This document shows positions 9,767-22,715 of a DNA stretch of 64,000 nt, in pieces. This DNA comes from an uncultured cyanobacterium (lineage in GTDB: Bacteria; Cyanobacteriota; Cyanobacteriia; Cyanobacteriales; Nostocaceae): NCBI GenBank assembly GCA_903848645.1, contig CAINGU010000041.1, forward strand, positions 62,001 to 126,000. Reading direction: 5' to 3'. Numbering within the stretch: position 1 is the first letter of the stretch; each line of letters starts with the position of its first letter. The position numbers were made by a program, and so were the translations under genes. The notes under the pieces were generated by a model. It was not told the DNA's origin and ran no database searches. It saw only the letters and a list, made by a program, of their open reading frames with translations.

Positions 9767-9882
9767 CCGCCTGGGAATGAATTCCCAGTCTAATAGCTAA
9801 AGTCCGTTAAAACGGACTGGAATATTCTCTTAGTCGTCTTCAGACGACTTTTGTTATTAGCCTTAGAATTCATTCTGAGGCG
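9767..9882. repeat. Palindromic element A, copy 1 (outer stem enclosing two hairpins)
   Basis: CCGCCTGGGAATGAATTCC...AGTCCGTTAAAACGGACT...AGTCGTCTTCAGACGACT...GAATTCATTCTGAGGCGG. Confidence 0.85.
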
Positions 9883-13259: not shown

Positions 13260-14195
13260 TTAGCGGGCAAGATGCCCGCACCACAAAGAAATTTTGGGTA
13301 TTTTTTGCCACCAAAAAGAATTTGCTAAAGGCCAAGATAACTCACAAAGAGTACCTTGAGGATAAAGAGAAACGCGCCTAAATTTACCTTTGATTTGTTG
13401 GGCTAAATTTTTAAATTGTTTTGTTCCCCAGCCTTCTCTTGATGAGTGAATTCCTAAACCATTATCTATAATGCTCAAAGTGTAAATCCCTGCATTTGCT
13501 GAATAAGTAACTTGTAGACAGGTAATTTCTGTGGCGTGTTTACCAACATTACATAAGGCTTCTTCTAAAAATCGGCAAAGTCCTCGTTTATTTTCAATAC
13601 TTAAATTGCTTTCATGGATAGTTTCAAAGTTGTGAATTTTTACTTTTAGGGTTTTAAAGCAGGGAAAATCTCTTTCTAAGGTGTAGCTATAAACTTGATA
13701 GAGAAGTTCATGTAAAGGGTTTCGCAAATCTATGACTACATTATTTCCTAGATAAAGGCTAGTATCTTGATTAAGAGTTTCTTGTTGCCAAAATTCATAC
13801 ATTCCTCGTAACTCTTGGTTCAATTCTTCAAGTTCTTTTTCTATTAAAGGTAATAATTTATTAATTGGTAAATCTTGCCCTTTCACTAGCTTTAAAACTT
13901 TAGCTAAATTTTGTAAAGGACCATTATGAATTGTTTCAAATGTAGTTTCAATCATGGTTTGGCGAGCTTGAATCCCAGATTTAATGGTTTGATTATATTG
14001 ATATAAAGACATGAGACTGATGCCATTTACAACTACAACAAAAATTGCTGGTACTAAAGAAACTGACCAACCCCAAGTTAACAAAAAATGACTAATCAAT
14101 ACTAAACTAAAAATAGTAATGATAATTTCTGATAACTTTCCTACAGAAATAAAATCAATTTCTGTTTGTAGCTTTTTCCAAAATTGAGTTTGCAT
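13260..14195 (-). CDS. Membrane sensor histidine kinase, NarX/DesK (HPK7)-like
   Basis: N-terminal TM segments; phosphoacceptor-like ETIHNGPLQNL; N box EEALCNVGKHA; G box IDNGLGI. Confidence 0.85.
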   Translation of the reverse strand: MQTQFWKKLQTEIDFISVGKLSEIIITIFSLVLISHFLLTWGWSVSLVPAIFVVVVNGISLMSLYQYNQTIKSGIQARQTMIETTFETIHNGPLQNLAKVLKLVKGQDLPINKLLPLIEKELEELNQELRGMYEFWQQETLNQDTSLYLGNNVVIDLRNPLHELLYQVYSYTLERDFPCFKTLKVKIHNFETIHESNLSIENKRGLCRFLEEALCNVGKHATEITCLQVTYSANAGIYTLSIIDNGLGIHSSREGWGTKQFKNLAQQIKGKFRRVSLYPQGTLCELSWPLANSFWWQKIPKISLWCGHLAR

Positions 14196-14271: not shown

Positions 14272-14967
14272 TTAATCAATTAATCCTTCGGCTCTAGCTT
14301 TCATTTCCGTTTGAATGCGGATGTTTTTACCTTCTTCTGGGTAAATATTTAAAGCGTCTTGTAATTTAGTCCAATAATGACGCACCATGCGTTCAGATAT
14401 ACACATATTTTTAGCAATTACTTTATCTTGTAATCCTTCTTCAAAGGCTAGGTTCAGCACTTTCAACCACTCTGGTTTTACCTCTAAACCTGAGTGTATT
14501 CCTTTAATATCTTTTGTGTGAGTTAATCCCTGTAATGCCCAATTAACTCTAGTTAACATTTCTTGGGTAGAAAGACTTTTATCAGCGACAGTAAAACCTC
14601 CTTTATGATTATCAATATAAGGACGAATACGTACTAATGTTTTCACATGGGCGCTTTGAATAACAATATTCAAATGGGAATAATTTTCTATCAAAACCTT
14701 AATCAGTTGAATACCTGTATCAACTCGCGCTGTCATTCCCAGTTTTTCTGGTATGGAAAGATCCATAATTAGTAAATCAGGTTGACAGCTAGTAACTTGG
14801 TCAAAAGCATGACTAGCATTTGTTGCAGTATTAAATTCAGCACTAGGATAGTTTTTTTTGAGTATTTCAACTGTTCCATTTAAAACTGATTCATGATCAT
14901 CAATTACGATGAATTTTAAAATTGATTTTTCTGATGAAACTTGTTGCATATCTAATAATTTTCCCAA
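14272..14967 (-). CDS. Response regulator, NarL/LuxR-like
   Basis: VIDDHESVLNG receiver, DLLIMDLSIP; C-terminal HTH DKVIAKNMCISERMVRHYWTKLQDALNI. Confidence 0.87.
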   Translation of the reverse strand: MGKLLDMQQVSSEKSILKFIVIDDHESVLNGTVEILKKNYPSAEFNTATNASHAFDQVTSCQPDLLIMDLSIPEKLGMTARVDTGIQLIKVLIENYSHLNIVIQSAHVKTLVRIRPYIDNHKGGFTVADKSLSTQEMLTRVNWALQGLTHTKDIKGIHSGLEVKPEWLKVLNLAFEEGLQDKVIAKNMCISERMVRHYWTKLQDALNIYPEEGKNIRIQTEMKARAEGLID

Positions 14968-15219: not shown

Positions 15220-15867
15220 CTACCAATAAAAGTGCCAAATTGACATAAGATTCTTGTTAAAGTAGGAGCATTTACCTGATATTAAGAATTTAAAGCTATC
15301 GTAAAGATATTCTAATTCTGGTAAATGGGAATAAAAAATCAAAGTAGAGATATCAGGATAAGAAATTTTTACAGTTAATAACCCTATAGTTCCTATTTGT
15401 TTAAGAGTAATATGAATATAAATAGGGAGTAACATTTCTGTTTCTGGTAAAGTTATTCTCAGTAATTCTTCTAAACTTCTGACAATGATCCAACTCCGTT
15501 TAGGCTCTTCAATTCGCCAGTAAACTGGCATATTAATCTGAAAATCTAGATCAGGATGGGAGTTAATCCAAGGTTCTAATAAACACTCAATAGATAAAGG
15601 TAAGCTATCTTGAATAGATATTGGACATAAGCTATCACTTAATTGGACTAAAGAGTGATGCAATTTATCAATTTTTTTGATATATGCTGGAATTTCCGTC
15701 ACTGATAAACTCAGGTTATCTATAGTTAATAAATCTAGATTCCGCCGAATTGTAAAACATTCTTGTAATAAGTCATCACGGATTTTTTCAGATTCCAGAA
15801 ATAATTTCAGAAATTCTCTATAAAACCACCATTGTAATGCTTGTTTAGTTCTTTGCTCAGATGTCAT
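15220..15867 (-). CDS. Hypothetical protein in peptide-export cluster; possible degenerate kinase-like protein
   Basis: Intact ORF (MTSEQRTKQALQWWFYREF) co-directional with the RR/HK and exporter; no obvious catalytic boxes. Confidence 0.6.
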   Translation of the reverse strand: MTSEQRTKQALQWWFYREFLKLFLESEKIRDDLLQECFTIRRNLDLLTIDNLSLSVTEIPAYIKKIDKLHHSLVQLSDSLCPISIQDSLPLSIECLLEPWINSHPDLDFQINMPVYWRIEEPKRSWIIVRSLEELLRITLPETEMLLPIYIHITLKQIGTIGLLTVKISYPDISTLIFYSHLPELEYLYDSFKFLISGKCSYFNKNLMSIWHFYW

Positions 15868-15923
15868 AAACGATATCATGGTTATGACTTAAATAAATTA
15901 GATATATGTCTTCTCTCAAGCTT

Positions 15924-15987: not shown

Positions 15988-17403
15988 TCATAAATCAGCA
16001 ATTAATCTGGCTTTTCTCAACATAAATTTTAATGCGGTTTCTTCTCTAGAAATAATTTCGGCTGTAGCGTTCATTCCTGATTGGAGTAGACACTGATGAT
16101 GATTATTTCCAAATGAACTGCTTTCGGGTTTAATTGTGGCTTCAAAGTAGCTAATACCAGGAGAAGTTGTAGTAGTTGTATCTTTGCTTTGAGGTGTAAT
16201 TGCATCTGGAGCAATGGTTTTAACAATTCCCTTTGCAGTTCCATAATCAGGATATGGACAAGCATCAACACGAAGTTGTACGTTTTGCCCAATTGCAACT
16301 TTGTTAATTTCTGCCGTGGGAATCATGGTTTTAATTACTAAAGAAGCATTATCAGGGACAACCTCAGCAATAGATTCACCAGCGCGGATAAATTGACCAG
16401 AATTTCGTAAATTTAGTTTAAAAATAATGCCGTTACTCGTAGCAATAATCATACTACTTTTACGCTGAGTTTCTAGTTGTTGAAGTTCTTTTTGTGATTG
16501 TTTTATTTGAGTTTGTATTTCTACCAATCGCTGAATCAAGACTTCTTTTTCTTTATTTAGAGCCGCTATATTAGCTTCACCTTTAGCAGTTTCTTGAGCA
16601 ATACGTTCTTGTGCCATTTTTACCATTGCTGTAGTAGGATTAACCGCAGCTTTATTTGATTTCAGTTTTATTTTAGCGATGTCAACAGCTTTTTTTGCCG
16701 ATTTTAGTGTTAAGGTTGTCTGTTTGACAACTAACTGTTTTTCCTGAAATTCTCGGTTGCCAACTGCACCAACTTTTGACAACTGTTCATAACGATCTCG
16801 ATCTAGTTTGGCAAATTCTAAATCAGCTTCAGCCTTGTCTAAACCTACTAATTCTTTTTGAATATTTACCTCCGCTGTCTTTAATTCACTTTCAGTATTA
16901 ATTTTTCGCTCTTGATATTCTCTTTCAGTTCTTAATAAATCTTCTTTAGCAGAAGTCACAATTCTTTCTATTACTCTTTTTTCAGCCATAATTTGATTGT
17001 TTAAAGTTCGGTTTTGAGCATAGATTTGGACTATTTGCAATCTATTTTGTTTAATATTTTCTTCTAATTGACTTTTTTTAATTAGCAATTGTTCTGTATC
17101 TAAAATGGCGATTACTTCCCCTAATTTAACAATTTGATTTTCTTTGACTAAGATATTTTTAACTGTCCCTTCTATCTTCGATTGCACCACGCGAGTTTCA
17201 CCTATGGGACGAATAATAGCAGCAGCTTTGACGGTGACATTATATTTCACCCATGAAGATAAATAAATGCTAGTAATAACAGTGCCAATGAGAAATAACC
17301 CCGCTAAGGATGTCCAACGACTTATAGGTGGCAGTGAATTATCATTTTCAATTAGAGAATTGATTTCTTGATTATGAGTGTAAAGCATAATTGTCAACAG
17401 CAA
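15988..17403 (-). CDS. HlyD-family membrane fusion protein (peptide secretion adaptor)
   Basis: Single N-terminal TM, AAIIRPIGETRVVQSKIEGTVKNILVKENQIVKLGEVIAILD, long coiled coil, C-terminal barrel. Confidence 0.9.
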   Translation of the reverse strand: MLLTIMLYTHNQEINSLIENDNSLPPISRWTSLAGLFLIGTVITSIYLSSWVKYNVTVKAAAIIRPIGETRVVQSKIEGTVKNILVKENQIVKLGEVIAILDTEQLLIKKSQLEENIKQNRLQIVQIYAQNRTLNNQIMAEKRVIERIVTSAKEDLLRTEREYQERKINTESELKTAEVNIQKELVGLDKAEADLEFAKLDRDRYEQLSKVGAVGNREFQEKQLVVKQTTLTLKSAKKAVDIAKIKLKSNKAAVNPTTAMVKMAQERIAQETAKGEANIAALNKEKEVLIQRLVEIQTQIKQSQKELQQLETQRKSSMIIATSNGIIFKLNLRNSGQFIRAGESIAEVVPDNASLVIKTMIPTAEINKVAIGQNVQLRVDACPYPDYGTAKGIVKTIAPDAITPQSKDTTTTTSPGISYFEATIKPESSSFGNNHHQCLLQSGMNATAEIISREETALKFMLRKARLIADL

Positions 17404-17416
17404 TAAACAATAATAA

Positions 17417-19567
17417 CTAAGGAATTACAAAATCTAAATGATCTCCGGGTTTACTTCGCAAATCTGCCAAAGAACCTTGTGATTTCAACTTACCTTGATC
17501 TATCAAAACAATCCAGTCAGCACGATTAATTACTTGAGGACGGTGAGTAATTAAAATTGTTGTTTTCCCTTGACGATGTTTAAATAATTGGTCTAAAACT
17601 TGGGCTTCACTAACTGGATCAAGTCCCCCAGTAGATTCATCTAAAATCAGAATTGGTGGATCTGTCACAATGGCTCTAGCTATTGCTAATCTTTGCCTTT
17701 GTCCACCAGAAATATTAGCACCAAATTCACCTAAAATAGTTTGATATTTTTCAGGAAGTTTACTGATAAATTCATCAGCACCAGCAATTTGACAAGCTTG
17801 AACAATCTGCTCAAAGGTAATATAAGGTGATCCTAATTGGAAGTTTTCTATAATAGAACGATTCCAAAAATGAGCATCTTGGGGAACAAGTATAACCTGT
17901 TGACGCAGCGATTCTAAGGAAAGGTCTTGGAGGTTATAAAGCCCAATCCGTATATTACCAGATTGGAGTTGATATAAACCAGAAATCAATTTAGCTAAGG
18001 TGCTTTTACCACAGCCAGATTTACCAATTAGAGCAATATTTTTACCTCCAGGAATGGTTAAAGAAAAATCTTCTAATAAGTCAATTCTCCCAGGATAATG
18101 AAAGTTAACATTGGTGCAAATAATATCAGCATTACTGGAGATTTGAGCAAAGGGTTTTCTACTATTATCTTCCTCTTCTGGAGTGGCATCAATAACTTCT
18201 GTGAGTCTTCGGGTAGCAGTTTTCGCACGAGTAAATTCATCAACAAAATGAATAACTGTACTAATTAAACCTAGAAAATTACTATTCATTGAATTAAAAG
18301 CTAGTAGTTGTCCAATACTCAAGTTTTCAGAGGGGTTAATTACTAAATAACCACCAAACCAGAGTAAAGTTACACTACCAATACCAGAAACAAAGCCAGA
18401 AAATGTATTATTAATAATCGCAATTTGCATGGTGCGAAATGTCAGTCCAGCTAGACGATTAAAGCGACTTTCTAATTCATCCCAAAATTGTCTACCTGAT
18501 GCAGTTGTTTTGAGAGTTAATGCCCCTTTAAAGGTTTCGACTAAAACCCCTTGTGTTTCGGCTTCTGTGACTAAAAGCTCATTGGTTTTTTGCTGTAATG
18601 TGGGCTGAAAAACAAAGGTAGATATGGTCATTACCACAGCAATTACTAAAGCCGCTGAGGTAAGTTTCCAACTATAAAAAAACATTAAAAATAAGGAAAT
18701 TATCGCAATAAAAAATTGACTTGGCAACCCAACAATAACTTGAGCAACTAATTGATTAATTTGGTCAATATCTCGCAGCCGACTGACAACTTCACCACTG
18801 CGACGAGTTTCATAATAAGTTAATGGTAAACGCAGAATTTGCCGCCCAAATTCCAGGACTAAACCTAATTGCAGTCGTTGGGCAAAATGAGCAATTAAGT
18901 TAGACTGGACAAAGGAGAGGCTACTAGAAATAATATTCATAACTACTACAGAAATTACTACAGTAGTCAATAATTTTGTATCACCTCTCACTAATACATC
19001 ATCGGTGAGAATTTGCAGCAAAAAAGGAGAAGCTAAAGACAGCAAACCCAATACCAAATTGAGCGGTAAAGCTTGGAATAAAATGCCGCGATAAATCCAA
19101 ATACGTTTAAAAAAACGCCAAAAACCCCCTTCCTTATCTTGCTTTTGAGAAAAAAAGCGAATAGGATCTGGTTCTACTAATAATAATAACCAATCTGTCC
19201 AAGCTGCTTCTAAATCTTGTTTAGAAAGATAACGAATACCTATTGCTGGATCTGCAATCAGAAATTTTTTACCTTTTTTACCATATAAAACAACCCAATG
19301 ATTGCCTTTCCAATGAATGATTGCTGGTAAAGGTGCTTCATTAATTTTATCTAATATTTCTGGCGAAGTTTTCACGGGATTTGCTTTAAAACCCAGGATT
19401 TCTGCGCCTCGTTTTAAACCTAATAAAGTAGTTCCAAATTGCCCCGTTCCTACAGCTTCTCGAATCCTGCTAATGGTAAAAGTTTGACCATAATGTTTGG
19501 CAATTGTAGCCAAGCAAGCTGCCCCACAATCTTCTTCGCTATGTTGTTGAACTAACTGGTATTTCAT
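17417..19567 (-). CDS. Peptidase-containing ABC transporter (C39 peptidase + TM + ATPase)
   Basis: C39 motif QQHSEEDCGAACLATIAKHYG, GNHWVVLYG; Walker A GKSGCGKST; ISGGQRQRLAIARAI; DESTGGLDP. Confidence 0.95.
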   Translation of the reverse strand: MKYQLVQQHSEEDCGAACLATIAKHYGQTFTISRIREAVGTGQFGTTLLGLKRGAEILGFKANPVKTSPEILDKINEAPLPAIIHWKGNHWVVLYGKKGKKFLIADPAIGIRYLSKQDLEAAWTDWLLLLVEPDPIRFFSQKQDKEGGFWRFFKRIWIYRGILFQALPLNLVLGLLSLASPFLLQILTDDVLVRGDTKLLTTVVISVVVMNIISSSLSFVQSNLIAHFAQRLQLGLVLEFGRQILRLPLTYYETRRSGEVVSRLRDIDQINQLVAQVIVGLPSQFFIAIISLFLMFFYSWKLTSAALVIAVVMTISTFVFQPTLQQKTNELLVTEAETQGVLVETFKGALTLKTTASGRQFWDELESRFNRLAGLTFRTMQIAIINNTFSGFVSGIGSVTLLWFGGYLVINPSENLSIGQLLAFNSMNSNFLGLISTVIHFVDEFTRAKTATRRLTEVIDATPEEEDNSRKPFAQISSNADIICTNVNFHYPGRIDLLEDFSLTIPGGKNIALIGKSGCGKSTLAKLISGLYQLQSGNIRIGLYNLQDLSLESLRQQVILVPQDAHFWNRSIIENFQLGSPYITFEQIVQACQIAGADEFISKLPEKYQTILGEFGANISGGQRQRLAIARAIVTDPPILILDESTGGLDPVSEAQVLDQLFKHRQGKTTILITHRPQVINRADWIVLIDQGKLKSQGSLADLRSKPGDHLDFVIP

Positions 19568-19923
19568 GGATAAAGCACCCTGAAGAATAAGAAGTAGGTT
19601 ATCTGGGACTAGCCTCTTTTGGATTTACAATGGAAAGATATAAATAATATATAGGTTTTGTGAAAAGTATTCAGATAACTAGATGGGGAATTTGATGTTT
19701 TAAGAAGGTCTTACTTGTCTAAAGTATCAATGTAGAAAATGAGTATTAGAAAAATATTCAATTAATAAAAGTAGTCAGCAGTCAGCAGGAGAGCAATAAA
19801 TCTCTAGCTGATAGCTGACTGACTTTAGCAATTAGTCAAATTTCAGATAAGGTTTTAGAGTCTAACTCTAATTTATTGTTTTTAACAAAGAACTAGAGAA
19901 GCTCTAAAACTCATCTTCAACTA

Positions 19924-20100
19924 CTAACCTAATGTGACACCGATAATTTGAATACTGTTAGAAGCAGTATTGAAACTATTTGTGTTTCGGTTAAAACTTT
20001 TTATGACCTTTTTCAACTCATTGTTGGAAGCAACTGTTGTTCTACCACCAGCTACGATTTCTTGTTGCTCAACAGATACTGCGGTAAATAGATTAGACAT
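19924..20100 (-). CDS. Double-glycine leader peptide precursor 1 (58 aa; absent from supplied ORF track)
   Basis: Manual translation MSNLFTAVSVEQQEIVAGG|RTTVASNNELKKVIKSFNRNTNSFNTASNSIQIIGVTLG*; RBS AAGGAG upstream. Confidence 0.85.
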   Translation of the reverse strand: MSNLFTAVSVEQQEIVAGGRTTVASNNELKKVIKSFNRNTNSFNTASNSIQIIGVTLG

Positions 20101-20256
20101 GACTGAATTCTCCTTGATTTGTATTAAGCTTGGAGTTGTTTACTGCTCGTTTGCCGTTTAACCCCTCGCTTGTTAATAGAATATCGAGAAGTCACTAGAT
20201 AATTCATTCTCATTTTCTGCAAACTTAATTACCAAATTTAGAACTAGCTATTTCCG

Positions 20257-20282
20257 AAAAATACACGCCAAGTCGGCTAAAT
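20257..20282 (-). promoter_or_regulatory. Conserved motif upstream of precursor 1
   Basis: + strand AAAAATACACGCCAAGTCGGCTAAAT; about 156 nt upstream of the start codon. Confidence 0.65.
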
Positions 20283-20383
20283 TAATTTGACAATATTTAA
20301 AGTATTAGCTAAATTCATTCCTAATAATGTCAGATAGTTAAAGAGAATAAAATAAGTTTCTATTTAATGTAAAATCTTTAACA

Positions 20384-20495
20384 CGCCTGGGAATTTATTC
20401 CCAGTCTCATAGCAAAAGTCATCTGAAGATGACTAACAATTCCCAGTTTACTTTAGTAAACTTTACTTATTATCACTGAAATTCATTTCTGGGCG
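20384..20495. repeat. Palindromic element A, copy 2
   Basis: CGCCTGGGAATTTATTCCCAG...AGTCATCTGAAGATGACT...AGTTTACTTTAGTAAACT...ATTCATTTCTGGGCG. Confidence 0.8.
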
Positions 20496-20550
20496 AGTAA
20501 GCAGCACTAAAGCAAAGACTTTAAGCAGATTAATTTAAGATAATCTTTGC

Positions 20551-20772
20551 TCAATAAAATCTGCCGCGATGGTGCTTTCTCCTAGAAGCAGATGGGTAAA
20601 TAAAGAAATTAAAAATCATATTTATGACCGTTATATTATTTTGGATCGCAATAATATTATTTTTTCCTTGAGCGTTAATATTATTAAGATCGCCAATATT
20701 CACATCTGCCACACCACCAATTATGGTTTCTTGCTGCTCAATAGGTACTGTGGTAAACAATAGATTAGACAT
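20551..20772 (-). CDS. Double-glycine leader peptide precursor 2
   Basis: MSNLLFTTVPIEQQETIIGG|VADVNIGDLNNINAQGKNN...; same leader as precursors 1 and 3. Confidence 0.82.
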   Translation of the reverse strand: MSNLLFTTVPIEQQETIIGGVADVNIGDLNNINAQGKNNIIAIQNNITVINMIFNFFIYPSASRRKHHRGRFY

Positions 20773-20949
20773 GATCTAAATTCCTCTGATTTTGAGTTAT
20801 TAATTACAGTATATTGATTTTATACTTTTCAATCTGGCTTCGGTTAATACCCTATACCTTTATTATTAGCTGTGTCATGACTAATTTACGCCAACTTAAT
20901 TACCAGGTTGGGAAAGATGTATTTCCCAATTATGTCAGCTATATTTCCT

Positions 20950-20974
20950 AAAAATACACGCCAATATGGCTAAT
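20950..20974 (-). promoter_or_regulatory. Conserved motif upstream of precursor 2
   Basis: AAAAATACACGCCAATATGGCTAAT; about 177 nt upstream of the start codon. Confidence 0.65.
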
Positions 20975-21127
20975 ATTTGTGAATAGATTAAGAATTTTAT
21001 GTTATCTTTATAAAGTTGAAAATACAAAAATCTGTAGATAATGCTAGTTACCTACAGATTTATATCTATTAGAGGATTATTGAAAAAGCAAATTAACCTA
21101 TCTAATTAATAGTTCGGATTGGATAGG

Positions 21128-21295
21128 TTAATTTATGGGATATAGCTTGTCAACAACAGTAAAAATGTCGCCCAAAATTTTAACCGTGAGCTTATTCTTG
21201 AGACTTCTTATTTGTGGTTGAGAAAAATCATTAAATCCACCAACTACGGTTTCTTGTTGCTCAACAGGTACATCATTAAACAATGTATGTGACAT
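21128..21295 (-). CDS. Double-glycine leader peptide precursor 3
   Basis: MSHTLFNDVPVEQQETVVGG|FNDFSQPQIRSLKNKLTVKILGDIFTVVDKLYPIN; ATG 21295 preceded by AAGGAG (track start 21319 is upstream). Confidence 0.82.
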   Translation of the reverse strand: MSHTLFNDVPVEQQETVVGGFNDFSQPQIRSLKNKLTVKILGDIFTVVDKLYPIN

Positions 21296-21453
21296 AGTAC
21301 AAATCTCCTTGATTTTCAATTAGTGCAAAGGTTGATTACGGCTTTTTAGCTGATCAAATCTTCACTTGCTTAAAATGGTATCTAGAAATAAATAGATAAA
21401 TCATTATTACTTTCTGCAACTTTCATTACTAGATTGAGAAATAGATATTGCCC

Positions 21454-21479
21454 AAAAATACACGCCAATTTAGCTAAAT
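21454..21479 (-). promoter_or_regulatory. Conserved motif upstream of precursor 3
   Basis: AAAAATACACGCCAATTTAGCTAAAT; about 159 nt upstream of ATG 21295. Confidence 0.65.
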
Positions 21480-21519
21480 CATTTTCACAAAATAGAAAAT
21501 TTCTGCTACTCTTTTTCAT

Positions 21520-21626
21520 AATTCCCAGAAGCCAATAGCCAAAGTTGTCTCTAGACAACCGAGAAAAGCCTTTACTCCGTCTTGACGGACTTCGACTATA
21601 AGACTAGGAATTTATTCCCAAAGCAG
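21520..21626. repeat. Palindromic element A, copy 3 (left end shorter)
   Basis: AATTCCCAG...GTTGTCTCTAGACAAC...TCCGTCTTGACGGA...GGAATTTATTCCCAAAGCAG. Confidence 0.7.
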
Positions 21627-21782
21627 CTATACTATATATGATTATGTAATTCAAAAATAGTTTGTAAACTTTTAATTATGCTTAACAAGCATTAAATTTC
21701 CTAGTTGCTACTGGAGGGCTTTGAAACTTCCCATTATTCCTAGTAAACTAGAAAAGATATGCTACGGTGCAATACCTATACT

Positions 21783-22715
21783 ATGTCTTTAAAAATAGAT
21801 TCTGGATTATTTACGTATGATTTCATAGATCATCACGCAATTTTATGTGTGCCAGTTGATGCGGAAATTAAAGAAATCCGTAAACGTTACTTACAAATTG
21901 CTCGGATATTGCACCCAGATAGTTCTCATGCGGTGGGTAACTTGGAAAAACAGATAGCTAACGAATTGTTATCAAAGCTAGTGAACCCGGCTTATGAGAA
22001 ATTGTCTATAGAACGCAATCGTGGAGAATATCTGTTAATTCTGTCGCAAATGGGCAAACGGTTAGCACAAGAAGCAGCATCAATCTCACTCAGAACGGAA
22101 TTAGCCCAGGAATTGGTAGCTGCACCCAATATTACTATGTCCTACAAGGATGCGATCGCTAAAATTGCCACTACTCAATTTAATGATTTACAACAAGTAT
22201 ACACAATCGTCGCTCAAGTCAGTGAGTTAAATCTAGTTTACCTGATGCGAGTGGCAGGACAGTCAATAACGAGAACTCCCGCTACTCAGCCGCATAATCC
22301 TCTCAAACAATTACCAGTTATCCCAACTTCAGCACCCAAAGAAGAATCAGTCGTAGAACAATACCTGCGTCGCGCTCAAAGTTTGCTAGAAAAAAACCAA
22401 TTGTCCCCAGCCAAAGTAGAATTACAGGATGCCTTAAAGTTAGAACCGAAAAATAGTCATTGCCATAGCTTGATTGCAATGGTATATTTACGGCAAAATC
22501 AACTGAAAATGGCAAAAGTTCACTTTGATAACGCCCTGAAGTTAGATCCTGAAAATGGCATCGCTTTGGAATGGAAACCCAAGGTAGATAAAGCTTTAGG
22601 AATTACCAACAGTGGTTCTCAAGGTAGTTCCTCTTCTAAAACTGAAGAGAAACAACCAGATAAGTCTGGAAAAGGCGGTTTATTCGGCGGTTTTTTTGGC
22701 GGGAAGAAAAAATAA
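21783..22715 (+). CDS. J-domain protein with TPR repeats
   Basis: FIDHHAILCVPVDAEIKEIRKRYLQIARILHPDSSHA; TPR-like LKLEPKNSHCHSLIAMVYLRQNQLKMAKVHFDNALKLDPENG. Confidence 0.8.
   Translation: MSLKIDSGLFTYDFIDHHAILCVPVDAEIKEIRKRYLQIARILHPDSSHAVGNLEKQIANELLSKLVNPAYEKLSIERNRGEYLLILSQMGKRLAQEAASISLRTELAQELVAAPNITMSYKDAIAKIATTQFNDLQQVYTIVAQVSELNLVYLMRVAGQSITRTPATQPHNPLKQLPVIPTSAPKEESVVEQYLRRAQSLLEKNQLSPAKVELQDALKLEPKNSHCHSLIAMVYLRQNQLKMAKVHFDNALKLDPENGIALEWKPKVDKALGITNSGSQGSSSSKTEEKQPDKSGKGGLFGGFFGGKKK

Follow-up and report, generated by a model that had tools for sequence, protein, structure and literature searches.

Sequence comparison indicates that the minus-strand interval 19924-20100 of the window (the whole stretch of 64,000 nucleotides analysed here, from a bloom-forming cyanobacterium) is a real double-glycine precursor gene, a newly recognised member of an established family, overlooked because of its shortness. 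In the reading that we prefer, with a probability of roughly 85%, the product (precursor 1) is a CTB-family double-glycine precursor exported via the adjoining C39-peptidase ABC exporter (PCAT). Translation gave a peptide of 58 aa, MSNLFTAVSVEQQEIVAGG (leader) followed by RTTVASNNELKKVIKSFNRNTNSFNTASNSIQIIGVTLG (core), in agreement with the first-pass annotation, which had placed the start at ATG 20100 behind an AAGGAG and had recognised the gene as the exporter-proximal precursor of the cluster. Its absence from the supplied ORF track would be accounted for by a 60-aa minimum length, the apparent cut-off of that track. The antisense ORF reported there instead does exist, but it holds stops in 13/15 same-genus relatives and is spurious. 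The reading of the interval as a precursor gene is further supported by a match to NCBIfam model NF038167, by the C39 exporter next to it, whose peptidase type processes leaders of this kind, and by orthologues with an identical placement and the same leader throughout the genus. The features of the cluster are listed in Table 1.

Table 1. Features of the precursor cluster, in window coordinates
Feature	Position	Strand	Basis
Histidine kinase	13260..14195	(-)	domain matches
Response regulator, weak LuxR-type DNA-binding match	14272..14967	(-)	domain matches
219-aa protein with histidine-kinase fold, without recognisable kinase motifs (putative pseudo-kinase)	15220..15879	(-)	predicted structure
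HlyD-type adaptor	15988..17403	(-)	domain matches, operon conservation
Short-type C39-peptidase ABC exporter (PCAT), 716 aa	17417..19567	(-)	Pfam/NCBIfam domains; PCAT1 match
Precursor 1, 58 aa	19924..20100	(-)	translation, NF038167 match, open frame in relatives
Core of precursor 1, 39 aa	19927-20043	(-)	
Antisense ORF of supplied track, spurious	19970..20161	(+)	63 aa; frame broken in relatives
Leader of precursor 1, 19 aa ending Gly-Gly	20044-20100	(-)	
5' element of precursor 1 (model R1, 114 bits)	20101..20193	(-)	folds, covariance model
Shine-Dalgarno AAGGAG	20110..20115	(-)	nine bases ahead of ATG; kept in 16 same-genus copies
Hairpin in 5' element of precursor 1	20128-20169	(-)	
Conserved non-coding block, probable promoter/operator region, box TTGGCGTGTATTTTTCGG	20194..20284	(-)	
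Putative terminator-like hairpin 3' of precursor 2	20417..20434	(-)	
Precursor 2, 73 aa, leader MSNLLFTTVPIEQQETIIGG	20551..20772	(-)	leader pattern; NF038167 14.5 bits, below cut-off
Putative terminator-like hairpin 3' of precursor 3	21028..21061	(-)	
Precursor 3, 55 aa, leader MSHTLFNDVPVEQQETVVGG	21128..21295	(-)	leader pattern; NF038167 20.4 bits, below cut-off
5' element of precursor 3 (model R1, 41 bits)	21296..21390	(-)	covariance model

Conservation of the gene was analysed in 15 other genomes of the Dolichospermum/Anabaena/Aphanizomenon group. No loss of the frame, which the first-pass annotation had named as evidence against the gene, was seen in these relatives, and all 16 genomes, the source among them, have an uninterrupted sense ORF. 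Mean pairwise DNA identity was 88% over about 190 nt upstream and 90% in the leader, falling to 26% in the core (16% in shuffled sequences); values of 32% and 35% were obtained for the 3' flank and for the region farther than 190 nt upstream, respectively. The Gly-Gly codon (window 20044-20045) is the exact end point of many DNA alignments. Conservation of the upstream region (0.85-0.91) exceeded that of third codon positions in eight neighbouring genes (0.75-0.81), which argues for selection acting on the region itself. The literature searched holds no account of this collapse of identity at the Gly-Gly codon; the sharp boundary and the 5' hairpin described below are additions to the first-pass annotation.

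A sigma-70 scan of the upstream region returned promoter-like sites that were not above chance. A SigJ J-box promoter was also considered and dropped, as the upstream box resembles GGGAATACT loosely at best (PMC6495340). The motif AAAATACACGCCAA, a candidate regulator or promoter site, was found upstream of all three precursors (20250-20272, 20946-20973 and 21450-21480), including precursor 2, which has no detectable hairpin.

The family assignment of precursor 1 is based on NF038167, 'CTB family bacteriocin' (cyan_ocin_like), which it matches with 32.2 bits (E 9e-8) against a cut-off of 32. The match is narrow, with 30.1 bits, below the cut-off, in a six-frame genome search; of the three precursors in the window, only this one, missed by the track, passes. 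The profile is matched at positions 1-38 of 72 only, corresponding to the leader half. Its core half, which the cut-off does not require and in which cores vary, has no match in precursor 1, and precursors from related loci score from 13 to 92 bits. NF038167 was the sole NCBIfam match at E<=1, with no match to the NHLP or Nif11 (N11P) leader models; for the precursors Pfam gave no match above threshold, and PHROGs gave none for the precursors or for the putative pseudo-kinase. With regard to lanthipeptides of the prochlorosin type, the precursor 1 core has no Cys, and no LanM-like domain was present among the flanking proteins scanned with Pfam and NCBIfam. The core is rich in Asn, Thr and Ser (17/39 residues) and free of Cys, as first described; the absence of Cys is typical of the group (61/62 distinct cores) and no peculiarity of precursor 1.

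The leader likeness to the two other precursors, already pointed out in the earlier reading, was recovered at the DNA level. A degenerate leader pattern allowing up to three mismatches has exactly three sites in the 64 kb, the three precursors, with a chance expectation of 0.06 sites and three sites reached in 0/100 shuffles. In the PCAT1-CtA structure (PMC6959990), leader positions -4 and -12 are important; both are Val in 16/16 copies of the precursor 1 leader. Position -7 is Gln instead of the usual hydrophobic residue, and this counts against the export reading. In a codon-position test the leader had 5 variable columns at position 1, 6 at position 2 and 8 at position 3, so its conservation is not ascribable to protein-level selection alone. 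For precursor 3, the start at ATG 21295 (55 aa) was preferred over TTG 21319; orthologues of precursor 2 with a similar core are present at two other loci (L061 and L062). The three precursors appear to be transcribed separately, each as a small unit. The interval between precursors 1 and 2 holds an intergenic dispersed repeat (20352-20500), with many copies of 75-91% identity in the genus and the family.

Analysis of the exporter revealed a C39 domain (residues 2-130), a TMD (169-431) and an NBD (498-646), with Cys14/His90/Asp106 of the C39 domain and the Walker A and signature motifs intact, and a full-length match to PCAT1 (4ry2; E 1.5e-115). It is of the short type, without an N-terminal nucleotide-binding domain, and it adjoins an HlyD gene with several GG precursors close by. 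With these sequence features, the precursor 1 locus fits the group III cyanobacterial bacteriocin clusters (Wang, Fewer and Sivonen 2011, PMC3140520). The genes for the exporter, HlyD, the 219-aa protein, the response regulator and the histidine kinase all lie downstream of the precursors on the same strand, and about 45 Nostocales loci share this order, from which it follows that the regulators are part of the cluster. Neither Pfam nor NCBIfam gave a match above cut-off for the 219-aa protein. The structure predicted for it (mean pLDDT 82) matches histidine-kinase DHp-CA folds of the PDB with E 1e-5 to 1e-7 and probability 1.00, at modest whole-chain TM-scores (0.35-0.45), and no kinase nucleotide-binding motifs were seen among its conserved residues. 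According to this model, the protein is probably a pseudo-kinase. No immunity gene was recognised, which counts against the preferred reading. No modification enzyme was seen in the cluster, so the product is probably unmodified. The source genome carries a second PCAT/HlyD cluster (L078, C83:36000-55000) with GG-leader precursors that include His/Trp/Gly-rich repeats (HWGGGWGRPWSGGG) and a Cys-rich core; the 5' element R1 (see below) is absent from it.

Based on the exporter domains and on published PCAT work (PMC6959990), we propose that the 19-aa leader would dock on the peptidase domain of the PCAT and would be cut off after Gly-Gly, and that the 39-aa cationic, Cys-free core would leave by way of PCAT-HlyD and of an outer-membrane channel whose gene lies elsewhere. 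The histidine kinase, the putative pseudo-kinase and the response regulator encoded behind the exporter probably control the cluster. For a CTB operon of Nodularia spumigena, induction by phosphate limitation has been reported (PMC9846622).

A hairpin-bearing 5' element was found at two of the three precursors of the window (1 and 3), with none detectable at precursor 2. The hairpin recurred in single-sequence folds of 43 upstream regions (mean z -2.6), and a covariance model, R1, was built from 13 sequences. Searched over 1.09 Mb, mostly PCAT-bearing loci, R1 gave 34 matches at E<=1, all on the strand of the exporter and upstream of it. In 118 Nostocaceae genomes there were 37 matches at E<=0.1, and in 196 genomes drawn from the order all matches with E<=0.01 fell inside the Nostocaceae. 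A GG-precursor began 1-24 nt after 64 of the 68 R1 matches examined; since R1 includes the ribosome-binding site, nearness to the ATG is partly built in, while the GG leader beyond it is not. The remaining four belong to the same kind of cluster, three of them preceding a stop-truncated leader and one lying directly upstream of the exporter. In tandem arrays of similar CTB precursors (L088, L104), the hairpin occurs on the first copy only.

Covariation in the hairpin was quantified in 68 distinct sequences, in which 12/14 pairs showed changes on both sides. Double-change cells numbered 61, in comparison with 21.8 +/- 6.3 in shuffles, and slid structures paired 24-45% of cells vs 75% for the hairpin. 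These values come from an alignment fitted to the structure, which favours the result; independent support comes from the folds of single sequences and from the initial alignment of 13 sequences. When 35 upstream regions were aligned by plain MAFFT, RNAalifold gave no consensus structure, because that alignment is not structural. The fold of a longer 162-nt stretch including the leader was no more stable than shuffles, and hence the structure claim is limited to the 5' hairpin. The compensated changes, together with a variable spacing of the arms, argue that the element acts as RNA and not as DNA. In the window, the minimum-energy fold contains the hairpin and at the same time pairs GGAG of the ribosome-binding site with an upstream CUUCUC, and this predicted pairing suggests a control of translation. 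No Rfam model matched 19500-21800 above its gathering threshold (best E 1.4, chance level), and no description of the hairpin was found in a literature search. We lean slightly towards the view that the hairpin represents a cis-acting RNA family not described before and restricted to GG-precursors of this single exporter lineage in Nostocaceae, which would gate translation or stability, for example through pairing of CUUCUC/CUCCU with AAGGAG, and which together with the leader would form a constant shell for unrelated cargo in close species.

Decayed precursors, with an intact 5' element followed by a stop-shortened leader, were observed at L159 5360-5413 (L159/L173), in L174 and in L064 (about 9830-9868). 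Since the element persists in front of such leaders, it is by itself no proof of a living gene, and its persistence at these loci speaks for a reading in which the ORF at 19924-20100 is untranslated and the conserved stretch is an RNA element alone or a precursor relic. This reading is nevertheless very improbable in view of the open frame, intact leader and ribosome-binding site present in the source and in 15/15 relatives.

The 62 distinct cores found behind 5' elements have 35-70 aa, are rich in G, A, S, T and N (mean sum 47%) and sort into 43 groups between which no similarity was detectable (E<=1e-3). At an exporter identity of at least 90%, 46/61 locus pairs carry unrelated cores, and so do several pairs with exporters 97-98.5% identical, the cores differing in length and charge; on the other hand, one core family is common to loci with exporters merely 82% identical. 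As judged from these sequences, the cargo does not track exporter relatedness. The probable promoter region, 5' hairpin, leader and exporter constitute an export shell under strong constraint, within which the cargo changes completely between close species. The role that best fits such a constant shell with cargo turnover may be that of an antagonistic or self/non-self peptide, i.e. bacteriocin-like, a proposal for which we see roughly even chances. The composition of the cores, without Cys, would also suit secreted matrix or adhesion proteins like EbfG1-4, of which EbfG1-3 form amyloid and all four are needed for biofilm (PMC4997328, PMC9981879), the architecture of several GG precursors with a PCAT being shared and the turnover reflecting loose demands on a Gly/Ala/Ser/Thr/Asn-rich aggregating peptide. 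We regard this explanation as rather unlikely, given that unrelated cores at 97-98% identical exporters represent more turnover than a structural role would seem to need. The presence of the histidine kinase, putative pseudo-kinase and response regulator within the conserved operon raises a third explanation, namely peptide quorum sensing, with the peptides as signals which the adjoining kinase would sense and which may induce their own expression. A GG pheromone, a PCAT and a two-component system are likewise combined in class II bacteriocin operons of lactic acid bacteria. A receptor would be expected to co-vary with its peptides, yet the kinase is 76-87% identical within the genus while the cores are unrelated, and a signalling role is for this reason improbable.

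With precursor 1, a large and for the most part unannotated family gains one member, and the gene call itself is ordinary; the covarying 5' element and the pattern of constant shell and changing cargo are the part worth following. They define a natural system in which a near-constant exporter, leader and 5' RNA element are combined with unrelated cargos in related species, and they open two questions to testing: which selection lies behind cargo turnover in the secreted peptides of cyanobacteria, and whether the 5' structure controls peptide production. In addition, the R1 model recovers precursors missed by gene callers and by NF038167.

Precursor 1 resembles the CTB family (NF038167) in leader motif, length, absence of Cys, PCAT/HlyD neighbourhood and a score over the curated cut-off, and differs from it in the unmatched core half of the profile. 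The group III clusters (PMC3140520) likewise combine a short-type C39-ABC exporter and HlyD with several GG precursors, many of them unannotated; unlike the present locus, they were described with no mention of a histidine kinase, response regulator, promoter or untranslated element. PCAT1-CtA of Clostridium thermocellum (4ry2, PMC6959990) shares full-length exporter homology and hydrophobic leader positions -12 and -4, but it is a Gram-positive system without HlyD, with Leu at position -7 of CtA where precursor 1 has Gln. HetC of Nostoc PCC 7120 (PMC10986499) is also a cyanobacterial PCAT with an active C39 domain. In Synechococcus elongatus PCC 7942, EbfG1-4 and PteB similarly associate several small GG-leader proteins with a C39 exporter, and 3/4 of the EbfG genes had likewise been unannotated (PMC4997328, PMC9981879); the role shown there is in the biofilm matrix and not in killing, and the likeness to the cluster described here is one of architecture.
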